A program made the translations under genes and the position numbers. From Caenorhabditis elegans (taxonomy: Eukaryota > Nematoda > Chromadorea > Rhabditida > Rhabditidae), in the NCBI RefSeq assembly GCF_000002985.6, contig NC_003284.9, positions 5,146,001 through 5,210,000 of the forward strand: a stretch of DNA of 64,000 nucleotides, in the 5' to 3' direction. Shown one piece after another: positions 2,914 through 35,495 of the stretch (the first letter of the stretch is position 1; each line of letters begins with the position of its first letter). The notes beneath the pieces are model-generated. The model made no database searches. It was not told the origin of the DNA and saw nothing but the letters and a program-made list of their open reading frames with translations.

Positions 2914-4432
2914 CTATTGTCTCTTCATCATTCTGAGTCTTCTTTGAAGCAACTTCTTGCGCCATTTCCTCTCGAAATCTTGGAAATCATGCATTCGGTT
3001 AGCGTAGGCATCGGCGGCAGCAGTATCAGATCCTCTTAAATTTCAAAAACTTAACAGTAAGTACACACATTTTGAATTTTTTCACCATACCTTTCTGGGT
3101 CAACATAGTTTTGAGAAGCTGAATTTGGATGATGATGTGCTCTGTGACTTGGCATGTGGGATGGGGCAGATCCGTCTCCGTATTCTGGAGCATTTACTGA
3201 GCGGCCGGCGTCGGCGACAGCGTTATTTCTGAAAATTTACATTACAAACTTTCTAGAGGTGTTATCATTCAACTCACTGCTCATCTCCATATTGTTGCTG
3301 ATGGGAAGGTCTAAGACGATGGCTTTTGCGATGTTGATGTGGTGCTGGAGCATCTACCTCAGAAGCAGCGGCAGAATCAGAAGCTCCAGAATGTGGAAGG
3401 TGAGCTGGAGCAGATCCGTCAGCGTATTCTGGGTGAGCAAGTGGACGAGATGGAGCAGCTGGTCTTTGCATGTTAGAATATCCGGCAGTTGGGGTGAATG
3501 GTGTTGGGAACATTTCAGTGAGAATCGGTTGAACTCCGCAGTCAGATGGACAGTATGAGGCTGGCATTCCAGGATCTCCTGGTGGACCTGCTGGACCTTC
3601 CATTCCATATCCACCCATCTTTCCTGTCTTTCCAATGCCTCCGATATCTCCTGGCTGACCTGGTTGTCCTGGTTGATTTGATCCTTTTCCTGATGGCCCT
3701 GGTGGTCCTTTCATTCCCTGTGGTCCTGGTGGTCCGAGTGGACCCTTAATTCCGACTCCAGCAACAACGGTGTCTCCTGGTGGACCATATGGTCCAAGTG
3801 GTCCACGTTCTCCCTTTGGTCCAGGTGGTCCGGGCAGGCCTGGTCCTCCATCAACACCTTCCATTCCAATAGTTCCCTGCATTCCAGCCATTCCTGGATT
3901 TCCAGTCATACCACGTTCTCCTTGAGCACCACGTGGTCCCGGTGGTCCAGCCGGACAAATGACGCAAGGAAGTTCTGGCTCCGATTCTGGCTGAATGTCA
4001 AATCCATCATCTCCTGAACGTCCTTGTCTTCCGGCATCTCCTGGCTGACCGTCTGGTCCTGGTGCTCCTGGTGGTCCAGGTGGTCCTTGTGGGCATGATA
4101 GTAAAAAGCATCCTTTACAGAATGCTCCACCCATCCAGTTGCTTCTCGCTTTTCTCGAGAAATATTGAATTCCCGGAACTGCGTCACCCTGTTTAATCTC
4201 CATCAATTCATTCCAAACGAGATCGGATTTAGCCTGCAAATAACAAGTTGATTGAGCATATTCACACGAACAAAAAAAAGTGCGTTACCTTTATTCCGTC
4301 AGAAAACGAAGAAATCTCGAGGAGTACGTTATCCGATTTATGGAAGAGCATTGGCACTGAGAAAACAGCAACCACCAACGTAAACGTCGATAGGACGATC
4401 GACGCAACGGCGACGTCGTAGAAATCCCGCAT
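2914..4432 (-). CDS. dpy-8: cuticle collagen DPY-8
   Basis: This is a nematode cuticle collagen of 452 residues, secreted by the hypodermis and cross-linked into the annular furrows of the cuticle. Exons (- strand order) are 4289-4432, 3278-4233, 3091-3228 and 2914-3034; all phases agree. The N-terminal 48 residues carry the collagen membrane segment. A subtilisin/furin-type cleavage site, RKAR, is at residues 75-78. Cysteine clusters ([19 protein letters not shown]) bracket interrupted Gly-X-Y blocks at roughly residues 97-285. The tail is non-collagenous, rich in His, Pro and Ala, repeats an EYxDGSAP motif, and ends in basic [18 protein letters not shown]. The cleavage site and cysteine spacing fit the DPY-2/3/7/8/9/10 furrow group. 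The name dpy-8 is from its neighbours and family, not from a database hit. The last acceptor, TTTAAG, is weak, but only it keeps the frame. Confidence 0.8.
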
Positions 4433-9163: not shown

Positions 9164-13661
<4,498 letters not shown>

Positions 13662-16600
13662 CTGCAATATACAAAAATGATGCAAATTGAAAAAAAAACT
13701 GACTACATCATACAGAAAAGGACCAAACTGAGCATGAGAAATCGTGTCGGTATATGGTATTTTATAGACGTTATTTTATGACTAGGGTTTTGATGGTCGT
13801 TTGATATGATGATAAGATATCAGTAGTTGAGATAATGGATGTGTGTAGGTCATTGCGGTGTTGTAATGCCAAGAGCAATGCCAATATTGTGGATGAGACA
13901 TTTGAGATGGAGTTAAAACTAAAATGGTATCACGTATGCAAATAATTATTGAAGATAAAATTTTCAAAGATGCAATTTTTCCAATAATTGATACTACCTG
14001 TTTTGGTAACTTACTGAAACGATTTGTAAATTATTAATTAATGAAATTAACTTTAAGTGCACTGTCACAAATTCAAATAGCTTGAATAAACAAAAATACA
14101 ATTGAGTGAAAAAATGAAACTTTGAAAGAAACTATAAAGACGCGCCAAATTCTTATCAAGTTGTGATGGTCGGGGGTAGAGTCTGTGTATCGATGCAACA
14201 CTATAAAGAACACCCATCCTTTTGTAAAACCTGATTTGGAAAAAGGAAGAAGTGATCTGTTTCTGTGTTTCATTTTTTTATACCGTTAAAGGCACCGAAA
14301 CCGAAACTTGGCCGCCGAGAAAACTAATTTTGTTATACAAATTTCTACAGGCTAGTTTTTGTCCTAGCAGAAAACAGTCGTTATAGTTTCAAAAAACGTT
14401 CGGGTCAGTTTTCTGTAAGGAAAAATGTCTGACAATTCGGGAAACATTATTTTAAATAAATACCACTAAACAAAGAAAATCCAACCAAAATTAGCCAAAA
14501 TATGGAAAAGAATTCAGCCCTGTATAACTTTTGTTACAATAGTGAAAAAATCATAAAAGATGCCTGATAATTTGTGAATATTATTTTGGAATTATACCTC
14601 ACAGTTTTTAGGGTTTGAAAGATTTTAAAGAGTATGTTGTCCCATCTTAAAATAGCAAGAACTTTCCTATTCATATTTTTGATCAGACAACTAGTCCTAT
14701 TTGTTAATTGGTTTTTAAAGAGGATTGGTTTTTCATAATATTGTCAAACTAGAGTTCAAGCAGATAAATTTGATTTTCTGGAAGATTCTATTTTGGTAGT
14801 CGGTGTAAATATAAAGTTTATGCCTGATTCATGGTATGTAACAATTCATATTTCAAACGACCAGTCACACTTTCTTTCAGTTCCGCTATTACGCAAGCAG
14901 CTCAACGTGTGATTAAATCAAAATTGAAAACTTTGCTTCAAAATAAAACTTGAAAAATAGGGTTTCTAATTCAAACGAAGCCGTGCAAATCAGGCCACGT
15001 GTTAGCCGAAATCTCCCACGCTAACACCAAGAACATTCGAATTTAGTAGCCATCGTCATAACAGATATGATATAAATTCAGTCTGCATTTATCAGGTATG
15101 ACAGTTTTCATTTACGTTGGCGTTCCTCGGAAGCGATGTGGGAAAAAATTGTCAAATTTTACTTGAAAAGTCGTCACTAGCGTGTGAGTCCACTTATGTT
15201 TCTGTGTGTTCTGTCTGAGCAGGTAGTTTTAACGTAATGTGTTTTGTCGAAAAAGTGTCGGTTTGAAACGTCACAAAAAAAATGTTTTTGAAGTTTTGGA
15301 TATTCTCAAATGTTGCTTTCACTTCTGTCATTCACCCAAAGCCATCAAATAAATTTGAACTGTTCTTTTCACTCCTATGAATATAAAATCTGAAGTGACA
15401 CCACAGTGAAAAGGTTCAAAAAACTTATTTTTGGTTATAGTCCAGAAAAAGCAGTTCCGATAATGATTTATTTACTTTTTCGAACATCATAGGGATTCAA
15501 ATCTGCAACAATGTTCTAAATCTTTCAAAAAGCACAAGTTGCTCGGAAATTGGGCAATTCGTCAATACTTTGCTTTGACTGAAATATTCTAAAAACATTA
15601 AGGGATTATTTTAGTACACCAGCTAAATAGTCTTTTTGGGCTTCTTGGCGCAAACTTACAAAATACCTACATAGTTTCAACATTTCTGTGTTTTTGGGCA
15701 AAAGTTGAGTTTGCTGTACAATATGCTGTACAATGTGTACAATGTTTGTTAAACTTTAAAGATGTAAAAAAAAGTGTTAAAAAATAATTTTTAAGGTAAA
15801 ATTTGAATATTTCTGCAAAGCTTGTCTTTTCCACGGAAAAAAAAATCTGAAAATATGCCAAGAAATGTTTTGAATCGTCTAACTAAAAAAAATTTAAGGA
15901 AACTAATAAGTTTAGCAGGAACATACGAAGATGTCGTGATTAGGTCAAATAGTTTTTTTATCGGAAAAATAACTAAGTTTAATAAATTAATAAAAACAGT
16001 TTCTTTAACTTTTTAACACTTTTATAAAAAAATCATTGCGGTTAGGCTTCTATCACCAAAAACAAAATCCCACGTAACTTTTCCGAAACTCAAATAATCA
16101 GATCATAGATTAGGCCCTCCTATTTCTAGACTCATTTTACCACCACCACCTTCTTTACTACCCAATTATAATAATTTTAATACGTGTCTCAGCACTTCCT
16201 ATAGCAAATCAAAAGTGTGTGCCCGCGAAGTTTCCTCAAAACTATTTTCACGCCTTTTTGTCTTCTTCCCCCACGCTCCCCACATCATCGTGAAATTATT
16301 TTCCAGCACAGATTTGTGAAATCCAATCATAAACAGGTGAAATGTTCGAAAAAGGTAGTTTCAAATATAGAAATATTGTTGTAGTAATATTCACGTCTCT
16401 TTTGATTCCGTATACCTGCCCGGCCCCGTTTCATGGCTCCACCCCTTGGATATAAATAAAGCTACTGACAAAATGAGATTACATTTGCTTTTTCATTTAA
16501 TATTTTTTAGTTCAATTCCAAAAAAAGAACATACATTATTTTATTCCGTTCTTTTTCACTGCTGAAATAAAATAAAAAGGTTTCGAGCCGTTGTACTTTT

Positions 16601-17054
16601 TTTATTTTTGTACTTTCTCTCAAGCATATCATAGTATTATACGTAATGCTTTCCTTTTCTTAACCGAAAAAAATGAATGAGAATAAATAATATGGTTTTA
16701 GTAATTGGATCCTTTGCTATTTTTGAGTTAGACTATATTAATAATGTGTACCAGTGAATATGGATGTTATTTTCATCATCGGACACCTCGGTTTTGAATT
16801 ATGACGGGCCAGGTTCAAACCCCCATTCAGTTTAATTATTCAATGTTTTGATGTCAAGATTCTTGTCAGAATTTCTACCATAGTCAAAGCTGACATTCAA
16901 AAGACTCCATTTTAGATAATTTGCCAAAATTATAGGTATTTACCGTGATATTTAGTTTACTGACGTCTCATGTGTTTCAAAAACGCTTCCTCAATCTCGT
17001 TCATATTTTTCTTGATCATTTTTCTTTTTTTGTATGTAGGTAAGAAATTTTCAG
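13662..17054. other. intergenic region between HPDL and the peptide gene
   Basis: The two genes diverge from here, so the interval must hold both promoters. Short open frames (up to 66 codons) lack paired splice sites or recognisable products. No RNA gene or mobile element was seen. Confidence 0.5.
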
Positions 17055-17355
17055 ATGTCGCCAAACATGTTCGGACTTGTGTTCTTCCTCATCGTCGCTG
17101 TTGCACAAGCATCCCTGTTCCTTGATGAGAATAGCAGAGTGATGGCTCAGCCAGAGAGTGTTGGATCCTATGTTACTGAGTGAGTTTTTGTAACCCCTAG
17201 ACGTATTATATATACTCGATAATATTTTCAGTCTGGATAAGCTGAAAAGGTCGTTTGGACGCAATTGTATGCTAGCCATCTCCGGATGCTTCACCTCGTC
17301 GCAGGCCGAACGATATAGAAAATACATGGACAATGTGCGATTTATTCCGAAATGA
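17055..17355 (+). CDS. prepropeptide with an allatostatin-C-like cysteine loop
   Basis: Exons 17055-17179 and 17232-17355 join in phase to give 82 residues. The ATG directly follows TTTTCAG. Residues 1-18 (MSPNMFGLVFFLIVAVAQA region) form a signal peptide. A short spacer ends in a dibasic KLKR site, followed by SFGRNCMLAISGCF. The two cysteines are six residues apart and the second is followed by Phe, with an Ile-Ser pair inside the loop. Arthropod allatostatin C (somatostatin-related) peptides have the same C-x6-C-F plan with a hydrophobic-Ser pair. The remaining tail, from TSSQAERYRKYM to RFIPK, has no further clear dibasic site. Likely role: secreted neuropeptide for a G-protein-coupled receptor of the somatostatin/allatostatin C class. 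The loop match is direct, the family call is inference from one motif. Confidence 0.7.
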
Positions 17356-19410
17356 ATATGAAATTCGAATCATTTTTTCTTCCATAAAACATCTGGCTGG
17401 TTTTTTCTCGAATCTTTAATTTATTATTTTTTATACCTCTCCTATATAAAAAGGCTTGTGTATTATGCTAGACCCTAGTTATCTACCGTCCCATTCTTTC
17501 TTTTTCAAACTTTTATTGTCGTCGCTCTCGGACAACAAAATAATGAACCGAACTCTCCTTGTTAATCAAATTGTTGTGATCCAACACGATCAACTAGATT
17601 TAGAAATAAGCTGTCTGGAGTAAATGATCAGCAAAATAGTTTATGGAAACAAAACATAGAAACCAATAACTCCGAGCACATCCTTTAGGTATGCCACTCA
17701 AGCAAACATCTTAGAAGACCGATGTCTGATTTTTGAATTCTCGAAACAACTTCCTCGCCGTTTTAATTATGAAATCGATATGGTGTTTAATCGACTAATG
17801 GATTCGAGGATAAGCAGATGAAAAATGTTGACAAAGGGGGATTTACCTGCAATTTAATTGGTTTTGATTATATCTGCAGATGTTGTAAAATTTTTATCAC
17901 GGAAACTAAAATGTTATATAAAGATATGATTTACATTTGATCCCTTATTCGAGCAGTTAAATTAAATAGAAAACATTAAGAAATTGTTTTTAATTAAAAT
18001 CACAGAAAAAAATCACAATTTTGTCCTTTCTTTTGTTAACACTAATAAAATTTTTCAGATCTTTTGGATTAAGTTGAAAGAGCAAATATATATTTTTGTG
18101 ACGACAGATGCTATTATTGCAAAATAAATTTATTCATAGGTTTCAACATAAAGTTTGTAATTTAATTTGCATAGAGTCTTATTCTGATTAAAGGTGTAAA
18201 GTTCAAAGAAAGTCACCTTTTCAAGGGAAAAAGCCGTTGTAACTAAAAAATAATAGTTGAAAAGTCTGCGGGAAATTCAATTTTGGAGCATTCTCTGGAA
18301 AAGGAGTTGTGAGAAAGTTGTTAGTTCGGAGAATGTAAAAATTAAATAGTTGGAAGATTGAATTTGAAAAAGATATGGTGCGGATATGGAGTGTAATTGT
18401 TAAGAAAAAAAAATCGATTTATTCTCAATTGTCTCACAATATGAACATGCTATGTTCAGAAATTGTGTTTACGGTTTCTAATAAGATACTTTGTTAGAAT
18501 ACAGTTTGATCCAATTAAAACCTGACTTGTTCGACGTTTTCAAAAAATTCCAACATATTTTAGATATCCAAGAAAAATTATCTTATTTTGCACTATTCAA
18601 GCTGTGGATTGTTTATTTATTCACTATTAGTAAGCTCGTAAAACTGCCCTCTGAAAAAGTTTTTCATAATTTAAAAAAATGCGTACTATGGAAAAAATTC
18701 TTAATGTGAAAATATTTCAGTTTGGTAATATTGCATTACTTTAATTGGAAACATAAAGCATAAAACACCTATCCATTTTCAAAAGTTTTAATAGCACAAC
18801 TACGCACTTTTTGTATCGTCCATACACACTAATTTTCCTTGTTGCTTGGCAAATAGTATTATCTACAAATGCACTGTATTTGAACTGAAAATTGTCATTC
18901 TGAAAATTGAAACTAGATATTTTGTCATCACTAATTACATACTTAATGGTTTGGCTTCAATCTTTACTCGTTGCAGAACAATGGAAATAATACTAGTTGC
19001 GCAAATATTTACTTTTTCATTTAAATAACCAACATTTTGGAACTTATTTATTCGAGAAATTGGAAATATAAAATAGCATACTTCCACAACAGAGTATTTT
19101 TATTCCATAGTTTCTCGGTTTTCTCACTGTCACCCTTCCTATGTCATAAATGTGTCGGGGCAAATGCATGCGGCCTCCACGTGGACCTTCCTCTTCTTCT
19201 TTCCTCTCTTCCTCTCCGCTGGTGCCTCATATTGTGCGCAAGACCACGGAAAGTGTGTCAGTGAAGAGCATGACGCGTTTTCGTCCAAATTTTTTATATT
19301 TTTCGCTAGTTTGTTAAAAAATGAATTGTCATTTTGAATTTGATTTTTTTAAAATTCTTTTTCACTTTCTTTGACTAAACAAATTTGAATTCAGGGTTAA
19401 TTGACTAAAC
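17356..19410. other. intergenic region upstream of the mannosidase gene
   Basis: A+T-rich DNA without a supported multi-exon gene. One short frame at 19164-19337 begins with a signal-peptide-like sequence and is listed separately. Confidence 0.45.
19164..19337 (+). CDS. candidate short secreted peptide ORF, 57 codons
   Basis: The frame starts MHAASTWTFLFFFPLFLSAG, a good signal peptide, and continues SYCAQDHGKCVSEEHDAF with two cysteines six residues apart. It ends in a hydrophobic stretch. It sits 74 bases before the mannosidase start, in what should be its promoter, and shows no splice sites. It may be chance, a leader ORF, or an independent gene. Confidence 0.2.
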   Translation: MHAASTWTFLFFFPLFLSAGASYCAQDHGKCVSEEHDAFSSKFFIFFASLLKNELSF

Positions 19411-33114: not shown

Positions 33115-34173
33115 TTTGGCAGTGAAAATCGATAACAATAAGAGGAAGAGAGGTGGTGTGTGGCGAAGACGGTTTGAATGGGGGAACGCTTTGCACTGTT
33201 GGCCCGGTGTGTGCAAACGCGCTCGATTCACAATAAGGAAAAAGATGGCGGGTTTGCCGCAGCGGGAACAGTGTGTTGAGAAATTAACTTACAGGTCTGA
33301 GTTGATGAGCGAGAAAATTGTTTTCGTCGTATCGAAATGAAGAAAAAAGTAGAATTTAACTAGTTTAAAGCCTGTTTTTAATAGCCACATTGCACTGTCC
33401 AAATGCAAAACATACCGTGCCAATTAATATATTTGAAATAAACACCGAATGGGACCCATCAATATGTGAAAAAGAGCCGTTGAAGGACAGAAAAAAGATG
33501 TATCAATGTTATCGATGACAAGTTTGAGATTTTCCACCACAACATCGTTGTGCCAAAATCGGGAGAAAGCTACTTGGAAACATTTTTAAAAAATCAGAAA
33601 AAAACAATATATTATATTTCCCTCCAAATTGTCTAGTTGTTCCACTATCAGTTTTGAAACCCACACTTTAACTTTTTGAAATCTTTCCAAAAAAAAACCA
33701 TTTGTAATACCTTTCCACTTCTTCGCCACGTATTTGTCAGATGTAAAGCCATAATTTTTCACTGCAAAACTACAAGTGTGCACAAGTCCATGCAGAACTT
33801 GAAATGTATCCCAAATAGTCATTCCCGTAAGCTTCAATCATTTACGTCAAAGAGCCGGTTTTCTCATTTTTCTTCTCATTTGTAATTATGACTCTGAAGC
33901 CAATAATTTAGATATTTTTCCCGCTTCTCTGATTCGTGTTTAAGAGATGTTATTTTCAAAACTAAAATCATTATTATTCCCAACTCCTTATACGTGTTCA
34001 TCAGTTATGCATAGAATATAGAATATCTGAGATCTTATGGGTTGAATCTCCTGAGAATTGAACGATAAAGTCACACCTCTACACTTTTGTTAAAGATTAC
34101 CATTGTTATTGACTTTGAGTTTTCTTCTTTTCTCCTTTCTGATTCACTCCGGCTCAATCAACTTTTGGGAAGA
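33115..34173. other. divergent promoter region between METTL9 and the Sru receptor
   Basis: About 1 kb between two genes transcribed away from each other. A short C-rich stretch on the - strand precedes the METTL9 start. Frames at 33116-33340 (+) and 33586-33837 (-) have no splice support. Confidence 0.4.
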
Positions 34174-35495
34174 ATGCCCACGTTTCCCGAATTGGTTATG
34201 TCTGTTCACAATGACAGTAGATACCTGAACTACGAATTCAAAATGAATACAGTGTCTTGGTGTGTTCTAGGCCTGTCAGCATGCGTATTTCTCGGACTTA
34301 TCTGTTTTATCAGAATGGCAATAATTTATTGTTCCCAACCTTCCATGGCTACCAAAGCTATCCATCCGCACGTATTTAAATCTATGGTTATTATGCAGTT
34401 GTCGGTAAGCTGGTTATATTTTTTCTTTGTTATCTGTTTTTTTTTTCAGCATTATATTTTCTTCATAACTGATAATTTGGCATTCCGCGTGCCTTCTACC
34501 GGATTTGTTACAGCTAGCTGTGCTGCCATGGAGCCTAATCACTACTTAAAAATTATTTACCTGTCACAAATGTGGGGAACCTATTGGTCAATGTTTTCCT
34601 CACTATTGTTTTCTATCATTCGAATGATTGTCTATGTAACTCCAACCAGACATGCAGAGGTAACAATTATCTAATTAGCCACACTGGCTCGTTTTGTAGA
34701 ATTGCCGCGCACCCATGCTTGCACTCCCTTTCGCTCAAAAGCAACCATGATATGAGCCTTTGAAGTAGAGGGATACATGCGCAAATCTAATAGTGAAAAT
34801 ACCGTCAACATTATTAATAACGCCTTATTTTCAGTGGTCGTCTTACGTTTTTTACACATTCATTCCGTTGGCTTTCTTCTCACCATTTGGAATTACGTAC
34901 TTTATGTATCCAGCAAAAGGCTATTGTAGACAATGGGGATCTCCTTTGGGCTTCGGGTCTGTCTTCATCTCCTACACCGAAACCTATGATGAAATACGAC
35001 ACGACATATTCTTCATCCCGTTGACTTTAGCTGTCCCTCTCCTTATTATCATCAACAATTTTGCTCTTATAGTTATGGCAGTTGGCTACTCAAAAACATT
35101 AAAGTAATTGTATTAATTTTCAAACAAAATTCTATTAAATTCATTAATTTATTAATTTAAGGCGCGGTCAAAGTTTGTTCAAGCAATCATCTCAATTATC
35201 CCTTATCTTGACTAGCATAGCAATGACCGTACCATACATCACAAGTGGAATATTGACGGTATCATTTTTTAAATTTTGAATTTTTGTTATATAGTATTGA
35301 ATTCAGGCAGTCGTAATTTCATACCCGGACGTCAACGCCTACGTTCTCTTCATTCGAAGCCCGATTACCGACATTGCTCAATCATCAATCCCAATAATCT
35401 TCTACTTGACTCACCCACTGTTCCGTAAAAAGATACAGAAAGTATACGTGGCGAATGTGATTCCATCTACATATCGGTCAAATCTACATTCATAG
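34174..35495 (+). CDS. serpentine chemoreceptor, Sru family
   Basis: Exons 34174-34404, 34450-34659, 34835-35103, 35162-35258 and 35307-35495 give about 331 residues, a seven-helix G-protein-coupled receptor. The N-terminus (MPTFPELVMSVHNDSRYLNYEF) has a short Asn/Tyr lead typical of Sru. The signature RVPSTGFVTASCAAMEPN is followed by LKIIYLSQMW and helix 4, a second family signature. PLAFFSPFGITYF and IIFYLTHPLFRKK match helices 5 and 7. Such receptors act in cilia of chemosensory neurons; ligand unknown. A second ATG at 34198 is an equally good start. The first intron is 45 bases, in frame and without a stop, so retention would add 15 hydrophobic residues. The spliced form fits the family better. 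Confidence 0.83.

Follow-up and report, generated by a model that had tools for sequence, protein, structure and literature searches.

A predicted two-exon precursor gene on the X chromosome

The window analyzed here is a stretch of 64,000 nucleotides of the Caenorhabditis elegans X chromosome (contig C6, positions 5146001–5210000). At window positions 17055–17355 on the plus strand, the sequence can be read as a two-exon gene that, once spliced, would encode a precursor of 82 residues, and we consider this gene model credible. Exon 1 (17055–17179) holds the start codon, a hydrophobic leader, and the first part of the propeptide; a predicted phase 2 intron of 52 nucleotides (GTGAGT…TTTTCAG, 17180–17231) separates it from exon 2 (17232–17355), which runs through the cleavage site and loop into the tail and closes with a TGA stop codon. 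A TTTTCAG lying directly 5′ of the ATG (17048–17054, plus strand) resembles a nematode splice acceptor and is a candidate trans-splice or intron acceptor.

The precursor is laid out as MSPNMFGLVFFLIVAVAQASLFLDENSRVMAQPESVGSYVTD-LDKLKR-SFGRNCMLAISGCFTSSQAERYRKYMDNVRFIPK, with an N terminus that is signal-peptide-like as judged by eye (FGLVFFLIVAVAQA|S), a predicted cleavage site, KLKR, at 17239–17250, and the two-cysteine loop RNCMLAISGCF at 17260–17292, the cysteines of which may be joined in a disulfide. It has the leader (again by eye), dibasic site, and short secreted peptide that characterize a neuropeptide-like protein (NLP) precursor. The original prediction of a prepropeptide at this position was right in its coordinates and features, including the presence of SFGRNCMLAISGCF after KLKR. 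That prediction let the peptide stop at Cys-Phe; the precursor does not end there, because 20 further residues, TSSQAERYRKYMDNVRFIPK (17293–17352), precede the stop codon. This tail ends in Pro-Lys and contains an RK pair (17317–17322) that could serve as a second cut site.

Searches with the precursor found no Pfam family at E values up to 10 and only weak matches among PDB sequences (best E value, 0.44). A repeat scan of window positions 16500–18000 returned just short, chance-like pairs, and two strings of the peptide were absent from the main texts of the literature searched. Elsewhere in the window, a Pfam scan of 10 open segments assigned a family to two of them, a collagen gene at 3277–4284 on the minus strand (Collagen, E value of 4.1e-19) and an Sru-class chemoreceptor at 34069–34671 on the plus strand (7TM_GPCR_Sru, E value of 6.2e-33). 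Exons resembling 4-hydroxyphenylpyruvate dioxygenase lie at about 9283–10996 on the minus strand, where two segments match the NCBIfam model 4HPPD (E values of 1.4e-19 and 2.5e-19), both falling short of the cut-off for the whole protein.

To set the motif against chance, the window was read in six frames and compared with 60 first-order Markov random sequences. C-x6-C occurs 102 times in the window (random mean, 86), C-x6-C-F 13 times (random mean, 7.5), and RNC-x6-C five times (random mean, 0.22; maximum, 2), while C-x6-C-F no more than five residues after a dibasic pair occurs twice (random mean, 0.37; maximum, 3). Besides the gene described here, the motif listing contains four more RNC-x6-C places and one more dibasic/C-x6-C-F place in the window. 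The loop motif by itself is weak evidence for a gene; what appears to raise this locus above chance is that a leader and a dibasic site share one short frame with the loop and the predicted splice sites.

AstC-like nlp genes and NLP-99 in the C. elegans genome

Excerpts from PMC8764417 name eleven allatostatin-C (AstC)-like nlp genes for C. elegans by our count, seven earlier and four new (nlp-55, nlp-62, nlp-64, nlp-66, nlp-67, nlp-71, nlp-79, and nlp-88 to nlp-91), and give RNCFF(S/T)P(V/A)QC as the motif of nlp-88 to nlp-91. Protein queries recovered seven AstC-like loci from the genome, five of which match this motif exactly: L005 (C4:11.51 Mb), L014 (C4:4.11 Mb), and L015, L016, and L018 (all at C6:8.22 Mb). 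The other two are near matches, L004 (C6:16.18 Mb) with the loop RNCYFSPIQC and L017 (C2:8.30 Mb) with RNCFFSPVNC. These seven and nlp-64 (L019; loop KPCYYSPIQC), which was placed by a qPCR primer at C6:308926 (primer position), make up an eight-member comparison set. The reported AstC-like genes nlp-62, nlp-71, and nlp-79 were not located in the genome, and the comparison set is therefore incomplete. Tails of more than 10 residues follow the loop in six of the eight members, and a dibasic site close before the loop is found in some members and missing from others, L015 being one without it. Three of these genes, L016, L018, and L015, fall within about 6 kb of one another (C6:8218432–8224606); L016 and L018 lie on opposite strands, are 65% identical over 43 residues, and are probably the products of a local duplication.

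NLP-99 is described in PMC13082328 as the C. elegans somatostatin/AstC ligand and as a reported ligand of NPR-16. Its peptide maps to C2:2715037–2715090 on the minus strand, and its gene is separate from the window gene. The two share a pair of cysteines six residues apart with a dibasic site before them, but NLP-99 differs in its loop (EFSPLS), its phase 0 intron, its location on another contig, and the presence of basic residues two residues past the loop.

Loop residues, flanks, and intron phase compared

All nine comparison loops, those of the eight set members and NLP-99, place an aromatic residue at loop position 2 and a Pro at position 4, positions at which the window loop, MLAISG, has Leu and Ile. 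Seven of the nine were obtained with queries that held the aromatic and the Pro, so that only nlp-64 and NLP-99 are independent in this respect. The window gene does have the (K/R)NC loop start and C-x6-C spacing of the motif given in excerpts from PMC8764417. RNC-x6-C followed by a hydrophobic residue is common to the window gene and seven of the eight set members (nlp-64, with KPC, is the exception), although these seven loci are not independent for RNC because the queries that found them contain it.

The window gene and all eight set members carry a phase 2 intron ahead of the loop exon, a phase that NLP-99 does not have. The phases were assigned by placing GT/AG sites by eye, from both exons for six loci and from the acceptor alone for L014, nlp-64, and NLP-99; phase 2 is a feature seen in this analysis rather than one published for the set, and agreement in a single phase counts for little as evidence of kinship.

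A random-draw test (20,000 draws with both cysteines fixed, scored as the mean against the eight-member set) shows that the mean score of a 14-residue stretch of the window peptide is reached by 2.9% of draws (p = 0.029), whereas the six inner loop residues give p = 0.44; the 14-residue score hence derives from residues flanking the cysteines. In the same test NLP-99 gives p = 0.00045. Pairwise, the window peptide scores 3 against nlp-64 and 20 to 29 against the other seven members. None of four family queries of the genome returned the window gene at E values up to 10; it was returned by one chimeric query, which bore the window's own flanks and so matched by construction. Three queries built from the window precursor, whole or in part, found nothing but the window gene in the genome at E values up to 10. 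These searches are insensitive, as shown by the fact that an nlp-64 query, although nlp-64 is listed as AstC-like, also matched itself alone.

In common with the nematode AstC-like nlp genes, the window gene has a short precursor, a leader exon, a phase 2 intron, a C-x6-C loop, the RNC found in most of them, and a tail of the kind found in some; it differs in the loop itself, where MLAISG stands against the RNCFF(S/T)P(V/A)QC of nlp-88 to nlp-91.

Interpretation of the window gene

We slightly favor the reading, drawn from sequence comparison, that the window gene encodes a neuropeptide-like precursor and belongs to the nematode AstC-like nlp set as a divergent member, one that would have kept the layout while its ring residues changed. 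This reading is supported by the gene layout, RNC-x6-C with its hydrophobic residue, the phase 2 intron, the tails in six of eight set members, the 14-residue score reached by 2.9% of draws, and the separate identity of NLP-99. Against it stand the inner loop residues (p = 0.44), the absence of the aromatic and the Pro, the failure of all four family queries, the singleton status of the gene, and the lack of a Pfam family. The original prediction had called the peptide allatostatin-C-like, a description that survives for the outline (dibasic site, RNC-x6-C plus a hydrophobic residue, intron phase) and fails for the loop hallmark, given that MLAISG has neither an aromatic at position 2 nor a Pro at position 4. 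The six inner residues of the loop are no nearer to the set than random residues.

A divergent member of this kind would be processed along familiar lines. The leader would be removed in the endoplasmic reticulum, the two cysteines would close an eight-residue ring by a disulfide, and a proprotein convertase such as EGL-3 would cut after KLKR, as is general for worm neuropeptides, with perhaps a second convertase cut at the RK pair of the tail. If the RK pair is cut, SFGRNCMLAISGCFTSSQAERY is the candidate peptide; otherwise it would be the full 34-mer. A carboxypeptidase such as EGL-21 would then trim the basic ends, and the released cyclic peptide would act on a G-protein–coupled receptor. 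As a divergent member, the gene would not be this worm's AstC/somatostatin ligand, and its peptide would probably act on a receptor other than NPR-16. A more specific proposal, that this is a former AstC-like gene in which all receptor-contact ring residues were replaced, the 20-residue tail was kept, and the cyclic product came to have its own receptor, one not of the somatostatin class, strikes us as rather unlikely. Were the divergent-member reading true, C. elegans would possess a cyclic neuropeptide with an AstC-like gene frame but other ring residues, and the gene would offer a test of ligand/receptor drift; its peptide would also be a candidate for pairing with an orphan receptor.

Next in rank, and to be entertained only tentatively, is the possibility that the gene encodes a two-cysteine neuropeptide-like protein that gained the C-x6-C spacing independently and has no AstC-like kin. 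Loop residues unlike those of the set, a gene missed by every family query, and its status as a singleton at the search sensitivity used all speak for such an origin; it leaves unaccounted for the RN before the first cysteine, the hydrophobic residue after the second, and the intron phase shared with the set, and the insensitivity of the searches blunts the singleton argument, since nlp-64, AstC-like according to excerpts from PMC8764417, likewise finds only itself.

Arthropod AstC has aromatics and Asn-Pro-Ile-Ser in its ring and ends after the loop. The window gene resembles it in C-x6-C-F but has another ring and a tail, and its Ile-Ser sits at loop positions 4–5 rather than at positions 5–6 as in arthropod AstC, so that the Ser pair put forward as an AstC hallmark does not correspond. 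Judged by a ring aromatic with Pro and a precursor that ends or is cut right after the loop, the window gene falls outside the AstC/somatostatin type. That it is a true allatostatin-C/somatostatin orthologue, with a disulfide ring and a somatostatin-type receptor, is accordingly a reading to which we give little credence: C-x6-C-F after a dibasic site speaks for it, but the loop is without aromatic and Pro, the precursor runs 20 residues past it, and the window peptide scores 7 against NLP-99, whereas NLP-99 reaches 29 to 42 with members of the AstC-like set. The role of nematode ligand for somatostatin/AstC-class receptors, which the original prediction had offered to this gene, is already filled by NLP-99 with NPR-16 (PMC13082328), the product of a gene on another contig. 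The window gene is thus very probably not the AstC orthologue, and C-x6-C-F alone is insufficient to identify one. Excerpts from two receptor papers (PMC3961327 and PMC8515059) did not settle the question of the window gene.

Still less probable is a calcitonin-type peptide, with an N-terminal disulfide ring, a helical tail, a C-terminal Pro exposed after removal of the last Lys, and a class B1 receptor. The ring near the N terminus and the 20-residue tail ending in Pro-Lys fit this type, and cysteine-bearing calcitonin-type peptides exist in C. elegans according to PMC6002491, which gives a cysteine spacing of usually 4–5 residues in deuterostomes and one of 7–9 in protostomes. The window peptide has six residues between its cysteines, lacks the Gly needed to make a Pro-amide, and has a tail of ordinary helical moment (0.18, reached by 40% of 5,000 shuffled tails); the excerpted text of PMC12638048 on calcitonin-type peptides adds nothing on the worm peptide. 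Least credible of all is that the locus is no gene and that sequence resembling splice sites and the motif came together here by accident. Taken by itself, the loop motif is fairly common across the six frames, but here a leader, worm-consensus splice sites, a dibasic site, and a loop share one frame.

In so well-annotated a genome, the window gene is probably already annotated. Excerpts from PMC10077061 and the name list of PMC8764417 point to nlp-64, nlp-66, and nlp-67 as the X-linked AstC-like names. The first is ruled out for the window gene: the nlp-64 qPCR primer given in excerpts from PMC12803089 maps to C6:308926, and both primers fall in that locus. nlp-67 is a predicted miR-80 target in PMC11709106. 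The miR-80 seed has neither a 7-mer nor a 6-mer match in the 700 bases after the stop codon of the window gene, which decides little about nlp-67 because L004 and L015 also lack a 7-mer (L004 has one 6-mer). The window gene may bear another X-linked nlp name of PMC10077061, again as excerpted, or be nameless; it is also possible that it is nlp-66, which excerpts from PMC9524666 report in OLL and URY neurons.
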